Assembly (NCBI RefSeq): GCF_041381155.1
Contig: NC_091145.1
Coordinates: 38,517,882 to 38,581,881, forward strand
DNA length: 64,000 bases
Direction of reading: 5' to 3'
From: Argopecten irradians
Lineage: Eukaryota > Mollusca > Bivalvia > Pectinida > Pectinidae
A program made the translations under genes and the position numbers. The notes under the pieces are model-generated. The model saw only the letters and a list, made by a program, of their open reading frames with translations. It was not told where the DNA came from and ran no database searches. Position 1 is the first letter of the stretch; each line of letters starts with the position of its first letter. Positions 10,201 through 45,800 of this stretch are shown here, one piece after another.

Positions 10201-12449
10201 GTGTGAAACTTGTTTAGAATTATTAGCCTGAGATAACATTTTATTATCATATATCTATATTGGTCCTGGTCAACCCCCTCGGGGCAGAGGGGTGGGGCCA
10301 AAAGGGGCAAATAGGCTCAAACTTTAAAAATCTTCTTCTTAAATACTGGAAATGGTAGAATCTAATACTCTTCATAGATGGACAGGTCTTAAGGTGTTTT
10401 ATGAAAATTGTGAATTATATGACCCTTGGGTCTCATGTTTCCCCCTGGGGAGGGGGTTAAGTTTACTTTAGTTTATATAGGAAAAACACATTTATGAACA
10501 TTATTTAGTCATTAAAATAGGAAATTAGTCAATTGTTGTCAGAATTATCCCTATGTGATGGCCATTGAATCTTATCAACAAATTTTCCATGACTGATCCC
10601 CAGGGGCCTTAGGGATGGGGCCAAAACGGGTCAAATAGGCTAAAACTTTAAAAATCTTCTTCTGAAATACTGGAACTGGTTGAATCAAATACTCTGCATA
10701 GATGGAAAGGTCTTAAAGTCCTTTACAAAAATTGTGAATTATATGACCCTGGGGTCTCAGATTTTCCCCTGGGGAGGGGGTCAAATTTACTATAGTTTAT
10801 AAAGGAAAAACACATTTATGAACATTATTTGCCTATTTTTCATAGGAAATTAGTCAATCTGGGTTAGAATTATTAGCCTGAGATAGCATTTTAACATCAT
10901 ATCCATATTGGTCTTGGCCGACCCCCAGGGACCAGAGGGGCGGGGCCAAAAGGGGTCAAAATGGATAACATTTCAAAAATCTTTCTTCTGAATTCACATA
11001 ATCTTCATAGATTAAAAAGTCAAATTTATAAAATCACTGACTGACTTCAAGGGCCTGATGGGCCAATATATAGTGTTTATATGCATGTCTTTGTTTCATT
11101 CTGTATCTGAAATCAGGTGACCGTTAAGGCCCATGGGCCTCTTGTTATATAGTTTCTACTTAAAAATACCCAAAGCAAAACAGAAGAATCCTCAAATTGT
11201 CAAATTTAAAATTATAGGCATGTCCGTCTTTTTCAGGAGTGACTTAGGAAAGCTTGAAAACCTGACTTTGTGTATAAAGGAAGGTCTGCGATTACATTCA
11301 CCCGTCTCCTTTATACAACGAAACACCACCAAGCCGTTTGAGGTAGAGGGATATCATGTTCCAGTTGGAACTTCTGTAGCTATTCAGATCTATAACCTCC
11401 ACCATAACCCATACGTGTGGGACGATCCGATGGAATTCCGGCCTGAACGCTTCCTTCCAGAGAATTCTGTCGGTCGGGATTCTTATGCATTTGTGCCATT
11501 CTCAGCTGGGCCTCGGTAAATATTTTACTTTTACATATTGATCATAGTCATTTAAATATTAATTCACAACAGTCACTGTATTTCATGCTCACTAAACTCT
11601 TGATGACAGTCTCAGAACAATATACTTTTTTTCCCATTGGTCTAAGAACAGTGATTGAAATTGATTGCATTGTCAAACTAGGGGGAGATAATCAAGTTAA
11701 TAGACTTTATAAAAGCATTATTTAATACCATTTAATGTATTTTTAAATTAAAATTATTGTAATGAAATTAATAATTAATTTTGTATTTGAAACTTAAAAC
11801 ATATGCAGTTACTGTCATAGTAACATATTAAATGATCATTTGTGAATTCCTACCTATAGTTAATTATCGACTGTGCCTAAATTATTTACTAACATTTTAA
11901 TTTAGAAACTGCATTGGTCAACATTTTGCCATGAACGAACAAAAGGTCACTCTTGCTCGACTTCTGAGAAGGTAACTATTAGTAACACTTTTCATGTCGG
12001 TTAAAATGTCTTAACGACTTAGTGCAAATTTGATGTTATAGTAACATTTTGAAGTAAAAAAGGAAAGAAAAAAATAATCTAAAAAGTGGTTACCTACATG
12101 ACATAGGAAGCCAGATCACAGCAGATTGTAATCTGATTGACATTTAGTCGACCCATCATCTATCATAGTAATGATAGATTGGTTATTTAAAGGAACTTTG
12201 TTACTAAGTATGAAATTATTAAAAAATATGAAGAGAGTACAGTACATTTGTATTTTGATGATCATGAAACAATGAAAAATATAACTACAAAATGAGAACA
12301 CCATGTTTATATCAGATATAAGTATGTAATGTCATTTCTGTAGATTCACCTTTGAGTTGGACCCAAAACATGAAGTTTCAAAGAAAATTGGTGTTGTGAT
12401 GCGTGCTGAAAATGGTATCAAAGTTTTCGCGAAGCCAAGGAAATTGTGA
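1276..12449 (+). CDS. Cytochrome P450, CYP4 family, 3' nine exons (5' partial)
   Basis: A haem-thiolate monooxygenase, presumably ER-bound. CYP4 enzymes commonly omega-hydroxylate fatty acids; the substrate here is inferred only at family level. Exons read by hand: 1276-1457, 2426-2550, 3335-3397, 4137-4260, 6882-7020, 8915-9044, 11237-11515, 11906-11971, 12344-12449. All junctions are GT-AG and all phases agree, giving 1214 nt (~404 aa) ending in TGA. Exon 1 has WLGDGLL and [10 protein letters not shown], typical of the CYP4 helix-C region. The I-helix oxygen-binding motif GHDTTTSA spans exons 5/6. The ExxR helix K is in KEGLR and the meander has FRPERF. The haem loop FSAGPRNCIG spans exons 7/8, with the cysteine ligand in exon 8. 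The usual ~500-aa length implies ~100 N-terminal residues, including the membrane anchor, upstream of base 1276; the first visible exon starts mid-codon. No in-frame stops or shifts were seen, so the gene looks functional. Confidence 0.95.
1862..2208. repeat. 43-bp minisatellite in P450 intron
   Basis: About eight nearly identical head-to-tail 43-bp copies of a unit containing GCCAATTAGTATAATC and CCAGAAGGCATGCTA. One copy has a 2-bp GT insertion near 2030. The array lies wholly within the intron 1458-2425. The high identity between copies suggests recent expansion. Confidence 0.9.
3371..3652 (+). repeat. 47-bp tandem array duplicating a P450 exon end and its splice donor
   Basis: Exactly six 47-bp units (282 bp). 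The first unit begins inside the 63-nt P450 exon, at GAGCGATCTATGGG, and runs through the donor CACT|GTAAGT into the intron. The last 27 coding bases and the donor are therefore repeated five more times downstream. Only the first donor keeps the frame; reading through the first unit meets TAA at once (TCA CTG TAA). One unit has GTAAAT instead of GTAAGT. Confidence 0.95.
4357..4892. mobile_element. Foldback element with nested hairpins at both ends
   Basis: Bases 4357-4400 and 4452-4495 are essentially perfect 44-bp inverted copies (ATTATGGCCTGGTTGAG at the outer edge). The loop contains a second inverted pair, AATAGTGCCC / GGGCACTAT. The right part ends with another hairpin at 4863-4892, CAATAGTGCCC...GGGCACTATTG, reusing the same GGGCACTATTG motif. 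Two TGACGTCA palindromes lie at ~4808 and ~4824. There is no ORF of note. It is a non-autonomous element in P450 intron 4261-6881, abutting the next element. Confidence 0.75.
4984..6804 (+). mobile_element. Hairpin-ended Helentron/pearl-like element, family A (copy 1)
   Basis: The 5' end is the hairpin AGCCCACCATC-ATC-AGATGGTGGGCT, followed by a CGTCCGTGGTCCG-rich stretch. About ten core repeats of ~155-158 bp follow, each with a GATGGCCGCC...GGCAGCCATC palindrome. The 3' end is the subterminal GGTGGG (inverse of the 5' end), then GATCCCTCTGGGATC and TCTTGTT. It sits in the P450 intron and stops only 77 bp before exon 6882. The long reading frames on either strand are by-products of the core repeats, not genes. 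It resembles bivalve pearl/HINE elements; autonomous helicase genes are absent. Confidence 0.8.
7413..8490 (+). mobile_element. Hairpin-ended element, family F, 3' truncated
   Basis: The 5' hairpin ATCCCCCGCC-CAACGAAGTTGA-CGGGGGAT is followed by TCCGTCCGTACGTACGTACG and about six core repeats of ~170 bp. These contain GTTTCCGGAGCATAACT and CCATGGAAACATTGCTG. No GGGATC/GGGCC-type 3' hairpin follows the last unit, so the 3' end is lost. It lies in P450 intron 7021-8914. Reading frames through it are repeat artefacts. The rest of the intron to 8914 shows nothing I recognise. Confidence 0.7.
9405..11146 (+). mobile_element. Hairpin-ended Helentron/pearl-like element, family C
   Basis: The 5' hairpin AGGTCACCTGAGAC-GAA-GTCTCAAGTGACCT is followed by CGTCGTGCGTCGTCCGTCG, then about four core repeats of ~325 bp containing ATTATATGACCCTGGGGTCT and GGGGCGGGGCC. 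The 3' end has CAGGTGACC (inverse of the 5' terminus), GTTAAGGCCCATGGGCC, then TCTTGTT. It lies within P450 intron 9045-11236, ending 90 bp before the next exon. No transposition genes are present. Confidence 0.8.
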
Positions 12450-26425: not shown

Positions 26426-27836
26426 ATGGTTGGCAAGAGAGTTGAAAACGTAATTGAAATTAGGGCCTATATCAAAGGTAGGTCTCTACTTGGCTAAAGG
26501 CCGGTGGATATTCATCGTGAGGTGTGTGATATATATGGGAAGGGTCAAATGTCATGTATGACTATTTGTAGGTGGGTTGCTCCATTTAAGTTGGGACACC
26601 AGCAGCTTAAAGATGCTGCCCACACAGGTCGCCCTGCAACAACAACAACAAAGCATAACATTGAACTAATTCTGCAAATTCTTGAAAAAGATGAAAGGTA
26701 CACTGTCCGGCAGTTAGCTAAAATGACAGGCTTGTCTTTAGCACGTATTCATTGCATTTTAAAGAAACATCTTAAGCTGGGCAAGATCAATGCCAGGTGG
26801 ATACCCCATTTACTAACTGACAACCAAAAGAGGTCCCGGGTTGACTAGATATAGACCAAATCCTTATTGAAAAAATACCAAAAAGACAGCAAAAAGGCTT
26901 TTGATAATTTGGTCACAGGTGATGAAACATGGGTGTACTTTTTCGAACCCAAAAGAAAATGCTCTAATCGAATCTGGGCAAACAAAAACGCCAGGCGCCC
27001 TAGCATTGCTAAAAGAATACGCACCGTGAGGAAGGTTTTGTATGTCATATTCTTTGATAACAAGGGTCCAATTATTCAAATCCCTGTTCCAAAAGGCAAA
27101 ACTGTCACAGCAAAGTATTATAGAGACGTTGTACTTCGAAAACTTAAGAAAGTCTACAAACGTCACCGCCCACAGACAGGTTTGAAGTACCTCAGGCTCT
27201 TACATGATAATGCGCCAGCACACAAGGCCAAGGCGCGCATTGTAACAGAGTTTTTAAAGGCAGAAAAGGTCACTGTCCTCCCCCACCCATCCTCTATACT
27301 CCAGGGGTTCCGATCACTTACGATCTCTACACCCCTGGACTATCTCATAGTGAAATTGAAGGCAGCTCAGCTGAAAATATTTGACCAATCACAGACCAGC
27401 AAAGATTTCCTTTGAAGACTACAGAGAGAGCGACTCCCAACTTCAAAGCCACATAGTCAACCACAGTGTACCTTTGATGTACATTAAAGGACTAAATTAC
27501 CTGTTCTGTTCTGTTGCCTCCAGTTTTACGATGAGATAGTCCAGGGGTGTAGAGATCGTAAGTGATCGGAACCCCTGGAGTATCGAGGATGTCCCCCATC
27601 CTGCATATTCACCAGACTTGGCCCCCTGTGACTTTTTCTTGTTCCCCGAACTAAAATTTCACCTGTCTGGAACAAAATATAAATCAAGAAATGCCCTTGG
27701 CTCTGCCATTTACCAGTATCTTATGAGTATACCAATTCAAGAGTATGAAAACTGTTTCCAAAAGTGGATCGATCGGTTGAAACGATGCATAAATGCAGAG
27801 GGGGAGTACTTCGAGGGACAGGGCAAAGTAAAATGA
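26426..27836 (+). pseudogene. Mariner-type (DDxD) transposase, inactivated
   Basis: Cut-and-paste transposase of the Tc1/mariner superfamily. From ATG 26426 one frame runs through a helix-turn-helix region (IRAYIKGRSLLG, then TVRQLAKMTGLS), the catalytic block VTGDETWVYFF (first Asp) and HDNAPAHKA (second Asp). It then jumps across a 304-bp MITE to SPDLAPCDFF (third Asp) and stops at 27836. Three in-frame stops are seen: TAA 26495, TAG 26846 and TAG 26852. With the MITE and its target duplication removed, I count 36 residues between the second and third Asp, versus 34 in classical mariner. The likely right terminus is near 27901 (GGAACATCCCTCGTA). It is dead because of the stops and the insertion. 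Confidence 0.9.
27288..27591. mobile_element. 304-bp MITE inserted in the mariner (hAT-like target duplication)
   Basis: Long terminal inverted repeats: CTCCAGGGGTTCCGATCAC...CCCCTGGACTATCTCA at the left, mirrored at the right. The outer edges are CATCCTC and GAGGATG. Flanks TCCCCACC and TCCCCATC are a near-perfect target duplication of 8-9 bp, typical of hAT-like elements. It interrupts the transposase between the second and third catalytic Asp. Confidence 0.85.
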
Positions 27837-33096: not shown

Positions 33097-33402
33097 AAAA
33101 ACGAATCGTGAAATTTGATCGAAAAATAGTCAAAATGCATTAAATATTATGAATAAGTTAAATATCAATAATATATCAAAACGTTTAAATGCTAATAAAT
33201 TAGAAATGTGTTTGTTCCAAAATATTTTTATTGTATCATGACTGAAATATAACTTTTTAACAACTTTCATCGGATGTCACTGCTGTGCATCTGCACATAA
33301 ACATCGAGTTATTCTCCTCATAAATTCGGAGAAAAGAAATGAAAGTCATTAATTCTCGTGCAGCGATAGACTTTATAATATTTCAAAGGGAATACGGTCA
33401 AA

Positions 33403-33458
33403 ACGGCCCTACTGTCAGAACGGCCCTAGTTAAAATGGCCCTAGTAAAAACGGCCCTA
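33403..33458 (+). promoter_or_regulatory. Left terminal array of four ACGGCCCTA boxes
   Basis: Boxes at 33403, 33420, 33435 (ATGGCCCTA variant) and 33450, spaced 17, 15 and 15 bp. They face inward and mirror the right-end array at 35608-35665. Regular spacing inside transposon ends suggests protein-binding sites (inference). Confidence 0.7.
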
Positions 33459-34138
33459 CTATTATATAGTGATATAGACAGTGATGTATTAAAAGTTATT
33501 TAGTATTGAGTTTTTTTAACTTAAGTGTTTTAATAAAAGATTTATTAAAAAAATATATGTTGTTTGTGTATTATTTTTATCTGAGGATTGATGCGATGCG
33601 AGATACATCTGACATGAAAGTAAATATATATAACAATTACTAACGTATGGACCTATACCATAAGGAAATAAAATCTGTAATTATCAATGTTGTATTATGT
33701 TTTACTAGCTAACATTTAATACAAAAATTTAGATATAAATTATAGAAATATAGATTCCAAATATGCTATATATATGTGATTTTGCAAAAATAAGTAAAAT
33801 AAATAAAATGATATAATTTTGAAATTATTTTGTTTTTCTTCTCTAACACAACATGCGCTAACTACGGCGGGCTTGTTGATATTAATGATTATCCTAATGA
33901 GTTTGATTGTACAGCTTAATTACTTTGATTGGGCGATCATAATTACCTTAAATTTTGAGTGACTCTGTTATACCAACACTTTCGCTTATTGGTCAGAAGT
34001 CGACACAAAATAGGCATACAGTAAAAAAAATATCCCCTTTTATTATACAACTGTTGTGTAGTAAAGTACTCTCGTTGATCATATTCCTTGGATTTACCGA
34101 TTTCATACATAATTCGACATGAGGCAAGCATTCACGCG

Positions 34139-35266
34139 ATGTTTGAGTTGTGGTCAAGCTGTCCGACCAAACAGCATGCGCTGCAGTGCGATGGTTGTGA
34201 TAGATGGCAACATAGATTGTGTGTGACACTGGTAAGTTCCAATTTATTAAAATTTTAGAAATATACAAGGCTATTCAGATAATATGTCCCGACTTTAATA
34301 ATTAAATCCAAATTTGTATTGGTATGTACAGTATCATTATAATTTGGTTGTGTGTATTTTAAATCATATTATCATAATTATATACTATTTTATTTCAACG
34401 CGTATCTATTAATACTTAAATCGAATTGTGTTTTGTACAGTATAAGGAATTTCTAACGTACATATTTGTGATAATCGTATGAACTGAACGACGCTCGCGA
34501 GTTTGTACATGTAGATTACTGTAACAGTGCATATTTTTCGCGGTAACGATATTTTCGCTGTCGTTAATTCGTAAATGCGGAGAGATGACGGTCTGATTGC
34601 ATGGTTTTGCAGAGACTGTAGTATCCCTCATCACACTAGTGAATTGGATACGACGGAAGAGGTAAATATTGAATGAAATGTTTATGATAGTGTACATTAT
34701 ATTACATATATAATTTGGTGTATAAAATTCAAAATCACAAGTTTTTAAATATCTTTTAAATTACTTTAAACACAGTGAGTATATAGCTAAATAAACCATG
34801 ATGTTATATAATAATTATAAAATTCTAATTGATATATATTGTATTCTAGCCGCCTGTGTTGGAACTTTCCAATCATCCTCCTTCTCCAGTTTCCGAACCC
34901 AGAGATGACCCGCCTGTGTTGTACAGTTTCCTTGACGATGACGTGCGCGTGGATGAGGTAAAAAAAAGAACTCATGTGCTTTTATGAAATAATATAGATA
35001 CTACATGTAATATAATATTTATTTTATTATGTTTATTCATTATTTAATACTGTTCATTCCCTTAGTTTGGTTGGTTGTGCGTCATTCCGTAATCAATATA
35101 ATTAATCATAATTATTTATTTTATTTCATTAAAACGAACGAGTTATATAATTTTTTCGTATATATTCAACTATATTTTTTATTTATTTCAGCCAGCACCA
35201 ACTAACTCCACATTTATAGGATTCCGACCAGACATTCGTCGCAGCTTTGGTGTTTCTCCGGTTTGA
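34139..35266 (+). CDS. Small zinc-finger reading frame carried by the Mutator-like element
   Basis: Exon A 34139-34231 (ATG to CTG|GTAAGT, 31 codons) encodes CPTKQHALQCDGCDRWQHRLC, a Cys/His pattern resembling a PHD-like or MULE-associated finger. Exon B, with 3' end 34661|GTAAAT, encodes RDDGLIAWFCRDC, which looks like the second half of the finger. Exon C 34850-34957 (acceptor TTCTAG, donor GAG|GTAAAA) and exon D 35192-35266 (acceptor TTTCAG, TGA stop) join in phase to give an acidic/proline-rich tail. B-C-D phases agree. The A-B junction does not: the only AG sites near 34582 give a frame mismatch, and TAA lies in frame just upstream. Either a micro-exon is missing from my reading or the gene has a small lesion. 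Function unknown; it may bind the element's terminal boxes (speculative). Confidence 0.55.
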
Positions 35267-35359
35267 CGTTCCGATACATTTGTCTTACCGTCTCCCGAGC
35301 GTCGACCACAGACCCCATATATATTATGTTCATTTATCTTCACAACGTGTACAAAGTTT

Positions 35360-35365
35360 AATAAA
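35360..35365 (+). terminator. AATAAA poly(A) signal of the zinc-finger gene
   Basis: AATAAA about 94 bp after the exon D stop codon and still inside the element, consistent with an element-internal transcript end. Confidence 0.5.
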
Positions 35366-35607
35366 ATTTAAATATCTTTTCCCATTAATACACTTGATAT
35401 AAGTATAATAATCAACTTGTATATATTTATGCATAATACTATATAAATGTAATCATTATCTTATACATATACATTGGCTGATCAATTTCAACAAATTATC
35501 TTTTTTTCGATTTATCCTTTAAATAAACTTCAATTAGAACTCTAAATGGACAACATATTAAGTACATATGTCTTTAAAAGTATTTTATTACTATGGCTAT
35601 TTAAAAC

Positions 35608-35665
35608 TAGGGCCGTTCTGACGCTAGGGCCGTTTTTACTTGGGCCGTTATTGCACTTGGGCCGT
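35608..35665 (-). promoter_or_regulatory. Right terminal array of four ACGGCCC boxes
   Basis: Inverted boxes TAGGGCCGT at 35608 and 35625, and TTGGGCCGT at 35640 and 35657, spaced 17, 15 and 17 bp. This mirrors the left-end array. Confidence 0.7.
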
Positions 35666-35690
35666 TTTAACCTAGATTCTTTCAAAGCTA

Positions 35691-35766
35691 AGTGCCGAAT
35701 TGTTTTCAAAAAGTGCCGAACATTCCAAATGCCGAAAATAAAAGTGCCGAGGTGACCAAGTGCCGA
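35691..35766 (+). repeat. Array of five (A/T)GTGCCGA-like boxes just outside the Mutator-like element
   Basis: AGTGCCGA at 35691, 35712, 35743 and 35759, with ATGCCGA at 35729, spaced ~15-21 bp. The design is like the adjacent element's terminal arrays but the box differs. It begins 3 bp beyond the target duplication, so it may be the end of a second element into which the first inserted. No inverted TCGGCAC partner array was found in this window. Confidence 0.55.
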
Positions 35767-36924
35767 GACGTCTATGATTCGTGTGTAACATCCCGACATG
35801 TGCACGCGTGGGAACAGACATTTGGCATTTAAAAAATACAAAATGTTTCCATGTAAGTCCATGTAACCCACCATATTTATACCATCCAAATAACTGAGGT
35901 TTCGGTCACGGCGGAAGTTTACATCTGGAACATGTCGATTTGCGCATGCGTGCTGACGGTTTTCACAGTACTTTCTCACGCGACACCGGAAGTACCACAA
36001 TACTATGTGACATTATAATTAGTAAATACAAACAATTATTTTTCAAATATTGATAATGGTATTTAACAATACTTTTTCTCAACCAAATGCATATGGCTTT
36101 AGCCTATATAACAGGTGATGTTTAAAATACTGCGCATGGGCTTCTTTATAAAAGTATATTTGCTCCCTCCAGGTGCGTGTGCAAGCGGCATAAAGCTCGG
36201 CTGTTCCATTAATCAAACAATCATGTCATGAAGTATTTTTATGTCATAAATATGTTAGTTGTAATACCTTTCACAAAACATATTTTTATCATAGGTTAAA
36301 ACCGTAATTTTAAAAAACAGTTTTGCACATAAAGTGTTTTTACATTGAAGATTTTATTTTATGTCTAGAGATCTTTCTCTGGGCAAGTCAATTAATTTAA
36401 CAGCCGTCGAATGTCACATTCTCTGCTGAGTGGCTGGCAGTCTCTGAAATCTCACTGGCTCCTGCATTGACCAACCAATTTCTCAAGTTCTTCTCAATCA
36501 CAGAGGTTTGTTGATACTATCCTAATGGCCATTGGTCTACACGTGCGATTATTTTTAATCAACATACGAGCTAATACTTCAATGAAAGCTAAAAATCTAA
36601 AGCAAATCATGCCCGTCTCAAGGAAGACTTTAGGAATGTTAGAGAGTCGCCATTTTCTTTGTGTTCGGAAAGCAGAAAATGATTTCCTTGTGGATATTAG
36701 TTTTGTCTCGGTCGTTCATATTTGAAGTGTGATGACAGGGGACAGAGAATGATTCAAAGCGCTTCATTCAATAAATTTATGTTTCGATCTCTACTCAATA
36801 TCTGTATATGTCATTTAAAATATGTTTCATATAAAATATTGACAAGTGGATGGTGTCAATCGGTACAATCACAGGGGTTTGTAATGATAAACTTAATGAA
36901 AATGAGAAAGCAGGCTACTTGATT

Positions 36925-42809: not shown

Positions 42810-45800
42810 ATGGATGGTAATTCAGGAGATGGTGCTGTGGACAGTCTCGGTGAATCCATGTTTTCTGGATCTGTTCAACTACAGGATGGTAAGTACATAA
42901 TTCAAATTAGAATTATTCTTCGTATACACATACGACAGCATTCTCTAAAATAGCTGTATGTATACCCTTCCTTCACTATGCTTAGTCAATCACTTGTCAG
43001 AAAAATGAATTTTGCTTCCAGAAATACTCTTCCAGCTACATATACCGTCTTAGCATATCATAGAGTTATTTACCCTTGCAGGAAGGTATCCATTTTTATG
43101 TCTATATAATGTCATTGCAATCAATACCTGTCTGCAAGGGCAGATAACTCTAGATGTTTGATATGTAAAGATGGAATACCGGTATCTGCAGTCGGTGTTT
43201 ATTATGGTTACACATGGTCTTAATATTGTACAGGTAGATTACATTCATCTTGGTATTACTGGATCAAAGATGTTTCTAACAAAGAACAATGGATTCCATT
43301 TAATACTGTCTATGTAATTACTGATTAGTTAATTAGTTATCAGCTACATGACACCGTATATAATTAATGAATTTTCAATAGTTATTATATGACTACTCAA
43401 AGTTAATCATTATTTTTCAGATGGGGATGATACTTTACAGTCAGTTGAAAATGATGATGAACCCCGGGATAATGAACCATTAAGAGAACAGGTCTGTTGT
43501 GTTGGATACACTGGCAACCGGTTCACACGGAGAAATGGTCACCAGCTGATCACTGTTGTAAAGCTGATGATCGTACCAAGATAGGGAAAGGCTTGCACAG
43601 ATTGTATGTTTGCAGCTCTAGTTTGGCCTCTAATTGGCATATTTTCATAATATTTTTTCATAGTCAGAAAAGTAACGATTGTCCGCTATATAATTCATGC
43701 ACTAATGATAGTTATACATTGTATGCATGCTGGGTCATCAAGTTCACAGTGGTCAAAAATCCTTAAATCTTTCGACTTCTTCTCAAGAACCGAACGGCCC
43801 AGGATACTCATATTGGGCTTGCAGCATGCTTTGATGAAGGGTTATTTAGTTTATTCAAATTGTTGACCTCGACCTTCATTCAAGGTCACAGAGGTCAAAT
43901 AGGTTAAAATCTTTAAACAACTTCTTGAGAATAACTAGGAGGCCTTGAGACCCAATATAGGGCCTGTGCCATTCTTGGATGGAGAGCTACCAAGTTTGTT
44001 CAAATGAATGACCTTGACCTTCATCCAAGGTCACAAGTGTCAAATCGGCTTAAATCTTTAAATAACTATTGTGAATCGAATAATTAAGAGGCCTAGAGGT
44101 CTGATATATATTGGGCCTGTGACATGCTGGGATGAAGGGCTACCATTTTTGTTTCTAAAAAAATGACCTTGATCTTCATTCACAGGGGTCAAATAGGCTA
44201 AAATCTTTAAACGAGTATATTGTATTGTGCCATTAGTCAGATGACAGTATTATGATTTGTATGTTAAATACATATCAGACACACAATTTATATAGACTTG
44301 CATAAAAACAACATACCAATAGACCAATATGAGGCTGAAATAGAGCTGCAAACATACAAATGGTGCAAGCCTTTCACCAACGTGGGATGTAGGTACCACA
44401 TGGATGGTACGATCATCAGCTTTACCACGGTGAATATAGCAGATCTCTTTATACACATATTGTAAAATAATTTAAGGAATGTATCAAATTTACAATAGCA
44501 TCCTTTGACAGACTATAAAATGATAGATTTTATTGTCACTGTTTGTTTCTTTAGTCTGTTGATGAATGATGATATATAACCAAGTATATTGTAAAAGATA
44601 TATACTATTATATACTCTATGCACAAACCATATAATAATTTGAACTAAATAGATAATATATATATCATATATTCATTAGAAGACAACAGTATGTGTTCCT
44701 GGGTTATCCTTACATTCATTAGAAGACAACAGTATGTGTTCCTGAGTTATCCTTACATTCATTAGAAGACAACAGTATGTGTTCCTGAGTTATGCTGATG
44801 TACAGTGTATTTGTTATCCTTACATTCATTAGAAGACAACAGTATGTGTTCCTGGGTTATGCTGATGTACAGTGTATTTGTTATCCTTACATTCATTAGA
44901 AGACAACAGTATGTGTTCCTGGGTTATCCTTACATTCATTAGAAGACAACAGTATGTGTTCCTGAGTTATGCTGATGTACAGTGTATTTGTTATCCTTAC
45001 ATTCATTAGAAGACAACAGTATGTGTTCCTGGGTTATGCTGATGTACAGTGTATTTGTTATCCTTACATTCATTAGAAGACAACAGTATGTGTTCCTGGG
45101 TTATGCTGATGTACAGTGTATTTGTTATCCTTACATTCATTAGAAGACAACAGTATGTGTTCCTGGGTTATGCTGATGTACAGTGTATTTGTTATCCTTA
45201 CATTCATTAGAAGACAACAGTATGTGTTCCTGAGTTATGCTGATGTACAGTGTATTTGTTATCCTTACATTCATTAGAAGACAACAGTATGTGTTCCTGG
45301 GTTATGCTGATGTACAGTGTATTTGTTATCCTTACATTCATTAGAAGACAACAGTATGTGTTCCTGGGTTATGCTGATGTACAGTGTATTTGTTATCCTT
45401 ACATTCATTAGAAGACAACAGTATGTGTTCCTGAGTTATGCTGATGTACAGTGTATTTGTTATCCTTACATTCATTAGAAGACAACAGTATGTGTTCCTG
45501 AGTTATGCTGATGTACAGTGTATTTGTTATCCTTACATTCATTAGAAGACAACAGTATGTGTTCCTGAGTTATGCTGATGTACAGTGTATTTGTTATCCT
45601 TACATTCATTAGAAGACAACTGTATGTGTTCCTGAGTTATGCTGATGTACAGTGTATTTGTTATCCTTACATTCATTAGAAGACAACAGTATGTGTTCCT
45701 GGTTATGCTGATGTACAGTGTATTTGTTATCCTTACATTCATTAGAAGACAACAGTATGTGTTCCTGGGTTATGCTGATGTACAGTGTATTTGTTATCCT

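Follow-up and report, generated by a model that had tools for sequence, protein, structure and literature searches.

Muta1, a Mutator-like element (MULE) of Aedes aegypti, produces 8- or 9-bp duplications, and each of its ends consists of a 10-bp terminal motif and nine 12-bp repeats with 3–4-bp spacers; the part of the report available to us counts more than 300 derivatives, in which the repeat numbers vary (PMC5225508). In the same account, short subterminal tandem repeats are described in 10 of 12 long-end families of Aedes aegypti (PMC5225508). Outside the MULEs, tandem repeats in the ends of Galileo are bound by the THAP domain of its transposase, according to the available portion of its description (PMC3688188).

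Here we describe an element with ends of this kind in a stretch of 64,000 nucleotides from Argopecten irradians (the window, to which all positions refer). An earlier note on this stretch had proposed a non-autonomous Mutator-like element with a zinc-finger gene of its own, and knew of no described family of this make. As far as the ends are concerned, that statement is contradicted by Muta1 and its Aedes relatives (PMC5225508). We conclude with high confidence that the window element is a decayed, non-autonomous internal-deletion derivative of a Mutator-like DNA transposon family of its own genome, a class that, together with its architecture, is already known.

Within the excerpts that we could draw on, Muta1 and the Aedes MULEs resemble the window family in having 8–9-bp duplications, a terminal motif combined with tandem repeats, and deletion derivatives with fewer repeats; Muta1 also shares a FLYWCH finger and a DDE transposase encoded by an intron-containing gene (PMC5225508). 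In contrast, Muta1 has nine repeats per end, a palindromic terminal motif and two exons, and a PHD finger goes unmentioned in that excerpt (PMC5225508), whereas in the window family the boxes number four to five and differ in sequence, and the gene has many exons and encodes a PHD finger. Tm1, a Mutator/Foldback element of root-knot nematodes, is similar in its composite ends with internal repeats of about 14 bp in varying number, its 9-bp duplications and its non-autonomous members, but the available text gives its ends other domains and terminal motifs, the latter being asymmetric and 7 bp long (PMC3169594). Rehavkus, which is related to the MULEs as an outgroup, likewise has a PHD finger and 9-bp duplications, but it has a minisatellite before its 3' end, and FLYWCH is unlisted in its row of the review table that we could consult (PMC6446971). 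In L061, a long relative of the window copy, the PHD finger is present, and a coding tandem repeat lies in exon D, not before the 3' end. Galileo shares long, internally repetitive ends, and in Galileo the tandem repeats are bound by a DNA-binding domain of the transposase, but in the portion at hand this is a THAP domain, and Galileo belongs to a different superfamily, that of P (PMC3688188).

Results

Ends and duplication of the window copy

The element occupies positions 33389–35679, and both ends given by the earlier note were exact. Its ends comprise the following features.

33381..33388, no strand: left copy of the 8-bp target-site duplication (TSD) TTTCAAAG, adjoining 33389
35680..35687, no strand: right copy of the 8-bp TSD TTTCAAAG, adjoining 35679
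33389..33464, plus strand: left terminal inverted repeat (TIR), terminal motif GGAATACGGT and then four boxes (ACGGCCC at 33403, 33420 and 33450; ATGGCCC at 33435)
35605..35679, minus strand: right TIR, four ACGGCCC boxes on the minus strand and terminal motif CCTAGATTC

Terminal inverted repeats are a feature of MULEs; those of the window copy are about 75 bp long, carry four boxes per end at a spacing of 15–17 bp, and show 79% identity in register over 76 aligned columns. The near-identical spacing at the two ends, claimed before, was confirmed: counted inward from each end, the first three boxes start at 14, 31 and 46 bp on both sides, and the fourth starts at 61 bp on the left and at 63 bp on the right. 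The 8-bp direct flank was likewise found as described, with TTTCAAAG abutting both 33389 and 35679. Four ACGGCCC boxes had been claimed for each end; this held for the right end, where 4 of 4 are exact, but not for the left end, where three are exact and the third reads ATGGCCC. Similarly, the termini match as inverted sequences but not exactly, since they differ outside the first box (GGAATACGGTC vs GAATCTAGGTT).

Random position pairs within the window gave an identical abutting 8-mer in 1 of up to 20,000 cases, a figure that includes the pairs skipped because they extended beyond the window; when 10 bp of slack per side was allowed, 394 of up to 20,000 pairs had a shared 8-mer. The window contains 8 copies of ACGGCCC, compared with an expectation of 1.41; seven lie in the element and one outside it at 43794, and none of 100 shuffles reached 8 occurrences. 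We searched the whole window for inverted cluster pairs, requiring three or more copies of a 7-mer in 70 bp at distances of 12 bp or more, and an inverted counterpart of the cluster at 200–8000 bp; only two overlapping 7-mers, both belonging to the element's boxes, formed such a pair. Hence the excess of ACGGCCC, the unique inverted cluster pair and the rarity of an abutting 8-mer led us to reject chance as the origin of the box array.

Directly outside the right duplication, at 35690–35766, lies another array of five AAGTGCCGA-type boxes (starting at 35690, 35711, 35727, 35742 and 35758, one with a mismatch), spaced 15–21 bp apart and without an inverted partner cluster in the window. It is perhaps the end of a second composite-end transposon that served as the insertion target of the window element.

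Relatives in the same genome

A search of the element's own genome (845,758,899 bases in 1508 contigs) yielded at least 93 matching pieces; as 40 of 123 candidates were scored, copy counts are lower bounds. We fetched 20 stretches of relatives for reading. One of them, L061, extends for about 6.1 kb from left terminus to right terminus, is about 94–99% identical to the window copy in its ends and 5' exons, and carries about 4 kb of additional sequence between query positions 1928 and 1929. When spliced, its exons matched the Pfam models PF00628 (PHD, 31.1 bits), PF04500 (FLYWCH, 28.2 bits) and PF10551 (MULE, 53.7 bits), all above the cut-offs (27.6 bits for PF10551). A longer relative with a MULE transposase, sought as a check on the earlier reading, was thus found. 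A MULE/DDE domain and a transposase zinc finger, often FLYWCH, are features of MULEs; L061 has the domain as well as both fingers, and the window copy is without the exons for the domain. Without splicing, the domain is split by introns, and for this reason scans of single frames, four from L061 and one from L067, reached no more than 13.6 bits with the MULE model, which is below threshold.

Exons A, B and C of L061 form one frame of 112 codons with GT-AG borders, and exons E6–E14, from FLYWCH to the end, can be joined across GT-AG introns into a single open frame of 479 codons and a stop. In L061 exon D is without its start, and the gene as read is interrupted between exon C and E6; a complete, unbroken autonomous copy was therefore not shown among the stretches read. 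Around 1820–2062 on the element strand, the exon D region of L061 is a coding tandem repeat of PQTPAAAVGDEDDATSPQRR-like units that forms the linker between PHD and FLYWCH. L067, a broken copy of the family, contains at 1530–2450 an open frame of 307 amino acids with cysteine-rich, knuckle-like motifs, possibly a nested retroelement.

Differences from L061 were counted by codon position in exons A and E6–E14. They were distributed 6, 2, 16 in L073 and 6, 3, 16 in L074, which are near-identical neighbours on one contig and not independent; this third-position excess is as expected for a gene that would once have been under selection. L078 gave 3, 0, 7, and L064, L065, L066, L068, L071, L072 and L076 had 8 or fewer differences each without a clear codon-position pattern; these eight loci have too few differences to tell. 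L062 was excluded for its many indels. Exon A is a single open frame in L061, L063 and L064 and is disrupted in L062 and the window copy; L066 and L076 hold only part of it.

Ends and duplications of other copies

The left terminus GGAATACGG is found in L061, L063, L079 and L067/L069/L070, the last three being counted as one insertion because of their common flank; L076 and L080 have variant left termini. At the right, CCTAGATTC is the terminus of L061, L063, L064, L066, L078 and L079, and TCTAGATTC that of L071 and L072, which have one flank in common. Right termini are variant in L062 and L068, and L073, L074, L075 and L077 end differently. TSDs, which in MULEs measure 8–11 bp, were scored only where both ends had been read, the other fetched copies being left unscored. 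Besides the 8 bp of the window copy, reading by eye gave a clean 9-bp duplication (9/9, CAAATAAAC) in L063 and one of 9 bp with one mismatch (8/9) in L079. The duplication of L061 is not clean, a common 12-mer lying 5 nt away from its left end. The same ends are therefore present in several of the 20 stretches, and two of these have 9-bp duplications of their own.

Subterminal tandem repeats of 9–15 bp, as in Muta1, were taken as the mark of Foldback-type composite ends. In this family, a terminal motif and tandem boxes are present at both ends, and the number of boxes varies among copies. With at most 1 mismatch allowed, the right end has 5 boxes in L061, L062, L063, L064 and L078, 4 in the window copy, L066, L068, L074 and L079, and fewer in L071, L072, L073 and L077; L075 has five in an unexpected position. 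The left boxes of L064 are absent from the stretch read.

Exon relics in the window copy

Between its ends, the window copy retains the following parts of the transposase gene.

34119..34231, plus strand: exon A relic, N-terminal part of the PHD finger; three frames here, one frame in L061, L063 and L064
34570..34574, no strand: deletion site, 5 nt here versus 159 nt in L061 and L067
34575..34661, plus strand: exon B remnant, 3' three quarters, with the AWFCRDC end of the PHD finger; donor GTAAAT next to it
34850..34957, plus strand: exon C, open; acceptor and donor conserved in L061
35192..35316, plus strand: exon D, truncated; TGA at 35264–35266 where L061 and L063 have CGA
35316..35317, no strand: junction of the internal deletion, at which the window copy is without the roughly 4 kb that carry the FLYWCH and MULE exons in L061
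35317..35604, plus strand: 3' untranslated region of the transposase gene, with the common AATAAA at 35360

The exon-like segments A–D have a G+C content of 46–54%, versus 18–28% between and beside them. A conceptual join of the window exons matched Pfam PHD at 27.4 bits (cut-off 24) and resembles PHD fingers of solved proteins, e.g., SET domain-containing protein 3 (E 0.00022). A six-frame search of the 64 kb gave a single occurrence of the CDGCDRWQHRLC core pattern C..C..W.H..C, which was absent from 60 shuffled windows, and three of W.C..C, one of them in exon B. In exon A, the N-terminal cysteine pair CLSC lies in a frame different from that of CDGC and of the exon end; a guessed, frame-corrected read-through of the finger scored 26.2 bits, versus 27.4 for the plain join, and covers the whole PHD model (1 to 47).

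Four splice sites, those after 34231, 34661 and 34957 and the one before 34850, have counterparts in L061; for the acceptor at 35191, the corresponding stretch is missing from L061. The 159-nt stretch missing at 34570–34574 holds the splice acceptor and the 5' part of exon B. The junction 35316|35317 fuses exon D to the 3' untranslated region. The internal AATAAA reported before is indeed present at 35360 and also in L061; taken alone it says little, since the element contains seven occurrences. Of the spliced zinc-finger gene of the earlier note, the window copy has exon A in three frames, exon B without acceptor and exon D with a TGA. Clean phase had been claimed for C and D. These two and the exon B remnant are indeed open, but over the gene as a whole the phase is disturbed, as exon A distributes the finger over three frames and B is without its acceptor and 5' part.

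Hence the gene in the window copy is broken. Assembly errors could account for the small indels of exon A, as short indels are frequent in L062 and L063, which lie on small contigs; such errors would account less readily for the 159-nt deletion and the TGA. In L062 and L063 (contigs C460 and C922), the short indels, of which L062 has many, may reflect unpolished assembly.

Discussion

The Mutator-like, non-autonomous class proposed before is supported by the 8-bp TSD, the relatives with shared ends and the MULE transposase of L061. In contrast, the finger represents the N-terminal portion of the transposase gene that an internal deletion left behind, and not an independent accessory gene. Because everything between a point in exon D and the 3' untranslated region has been lost from the window copy, the supposed zinc-finger cargo is the front of the transposase gene. 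The following history can be proposed from what was observed of the ends and their duplication, of the relatives and the domains encoded by L061, of the junction and of the broken frames. A long form, about 6.1 kb in size, would have had inverted ends in which a terminal motif is combined with 4–5 tandem boxes, and a multi-exon gene for a transposase containing PHD and FLYWCH fingers and a MULE (DDE) domain. Loss of the internal segment would have given rise to the window copy. As both ends were kept, it could have been moved in trans by the transposase of a sister copy, an action on the box ends that we infer from known MULE biology. Insertion at the present site would have generated the duplication TTTCAAAG, and the leftover 5' exons would then have decayed, although part of the damage may have come before insertion. 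By analogy, the boxes are putative transposase-binding sites, probably bound via the FLYWCH finger. Reading of histone tails is what PHD fingers are known for as a family, and the part of the family description available to us presents this, rather than DNA binding, as their known role. FLYWCH, among the exons lost from the window copy, is the likely DNA-binding finger.

The deletion joins the PHD-side exons to the native 3' untranslated region with its AATAAA, and a short PHD protein made by this copy or its sisters might therefore act against the full-length transposase, in the way that the KP deletion derivative interferes with that of the Drosophila P element. L063 and L064 also keep the PHD exons without the FLYWCH and MULE exons, and L064 has an open exon A and an exon B free of net indels relative to L061. 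We consider such a finger-only repressor highly unlikely. The finger of the window copy is frame-broken and its exon B lacks an acceptor, exon B of L063 has a net 4-nt change, L064 is without left boxes in the stretch read, and binding of the boxes by a PHD finger is not expected. Among the fetched loci, the exact 28-base junction of the window copy was found only in L041, which is the window copy itself. The junction of L063 is different, so finger-side derivatives arose more than once; L065, however, lost exons A–C and kept E5, E6, part of E7 and E14, and keeping the finger is therefore not a rule. The derivatives among the fetched stretches gave no sign that finger retention was favoured; in L071–L074 and L078 the 3' exons are present, and the stretches are too short to judge 5' content. 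It is also very improbable that PHD-only derivatives make a short chromatin reader, competing for chromatin or for multimer formation with the complete transposase. If they did, this would be a KP-like repressor based on a histone-reading, not a DNA-binding, finger, of which the window copy would be a dead example and L064 a less damaged one.

Capture of the finger exons from a host PHD-finger gene, as in a Pack-MULE, would fit the Pfam assignment to PHD, which is common in host proteins, and pieces of host genes are given for about 20% of Muta1 derivatives in the accessible part of the report (PMC5225508). However, the same exons stand in the same order upstream of the FLYWCH and MULE exons in L061 and of E5–E9 and E14 in L062. 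The finger exons therefore belong to the element's own transposase gene; capture was rejected and is almost certainly wrong. Membership in another superfamily with 8–9-bp duplications (Merlin, hAT, P or Rehavkus) is suggested by the left end, which begins with GG, and by the 8–9-bp duplications, both as described for Merlin in the material at hand. Rehavkus, moreover, is described with a PHD finger and 9-bp duplications in the portion of the review consulted (PMC6446971). Against this, the catalytic region of L061 scored 53.7 bits with the MULE model and is accompanied by a FLYWCH finger, and the right end begins with GA. Merlin was rejected because of this GA in place of GG and because the relative's transposase is a MULE; hAT was rejected on general features of hAT ends. 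Rehavkus is an outgroup of the MULEs in the same partly available review (PMC6446971). Taken as a whole, an origin in another superfamily appears very unlikely, and we keep to an internal-deletion derivative of a MULE family.

The main outcome is a corrected annotation, in which an apparent transposon with its own finger gene becomes one with a truncated transposase gene. The transposase gene of L061, in which a PHD finger precedes FLYWCH and MULE, may be an undescribed variant. In the MULE review table, as far as available to us, PHD is listed for Rehavkus only (PMC6446971), and in the collection of papers searched, FLYWCH, PHD, Mutator and transposase occur together only in this review (PMC6446971). 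The domain order PHD, FLYWCH, MULE is of specialist interest; if the PHD finger reads histones, it could steer insertion. Similar PHD-like fingers are found in many unannotated animal MULE proteins, and for this reason we do not claim the order as new.

Searches beyond the genome and other features of the window

In viral contigs, a pattern of three ACGGCCC boxes matched 36 stretches, 35 of them with a G+C content of at least 47% and one (L036) with 44%; judged by eye from their match contexts alone, most of them are one-stranded arrays of short tandem repeats with a different make-up, and we rejected all 36 as unrelated. A stricter box pattern matched one viral contig, L040. The finger protein query gave 12 pattern matches in viral contigs and no relatives, and two back-translated finger patterns had no match in collection scans for other hosts. 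Three bacterial stretches matching the box pattern among prokaryote genomes, with 70–73% G+C, were rejected. In the literature searched, the box strings led to two papers, unrelated by title, and the finger peptide strings had no match.

Elsewhere in the window, an open frame at 11133–11516 matches cytochrome P450 (profile 316–409), and two adjoining open frames at 26504–27415 with HTH and Transposase_1 matches are the relic of a mariner-type transposase. Positions 35914–35988 match the right flank of L062 with 90% identity over 80 aligned columns, so that a dispersed repeat lies beside two copies of the family.
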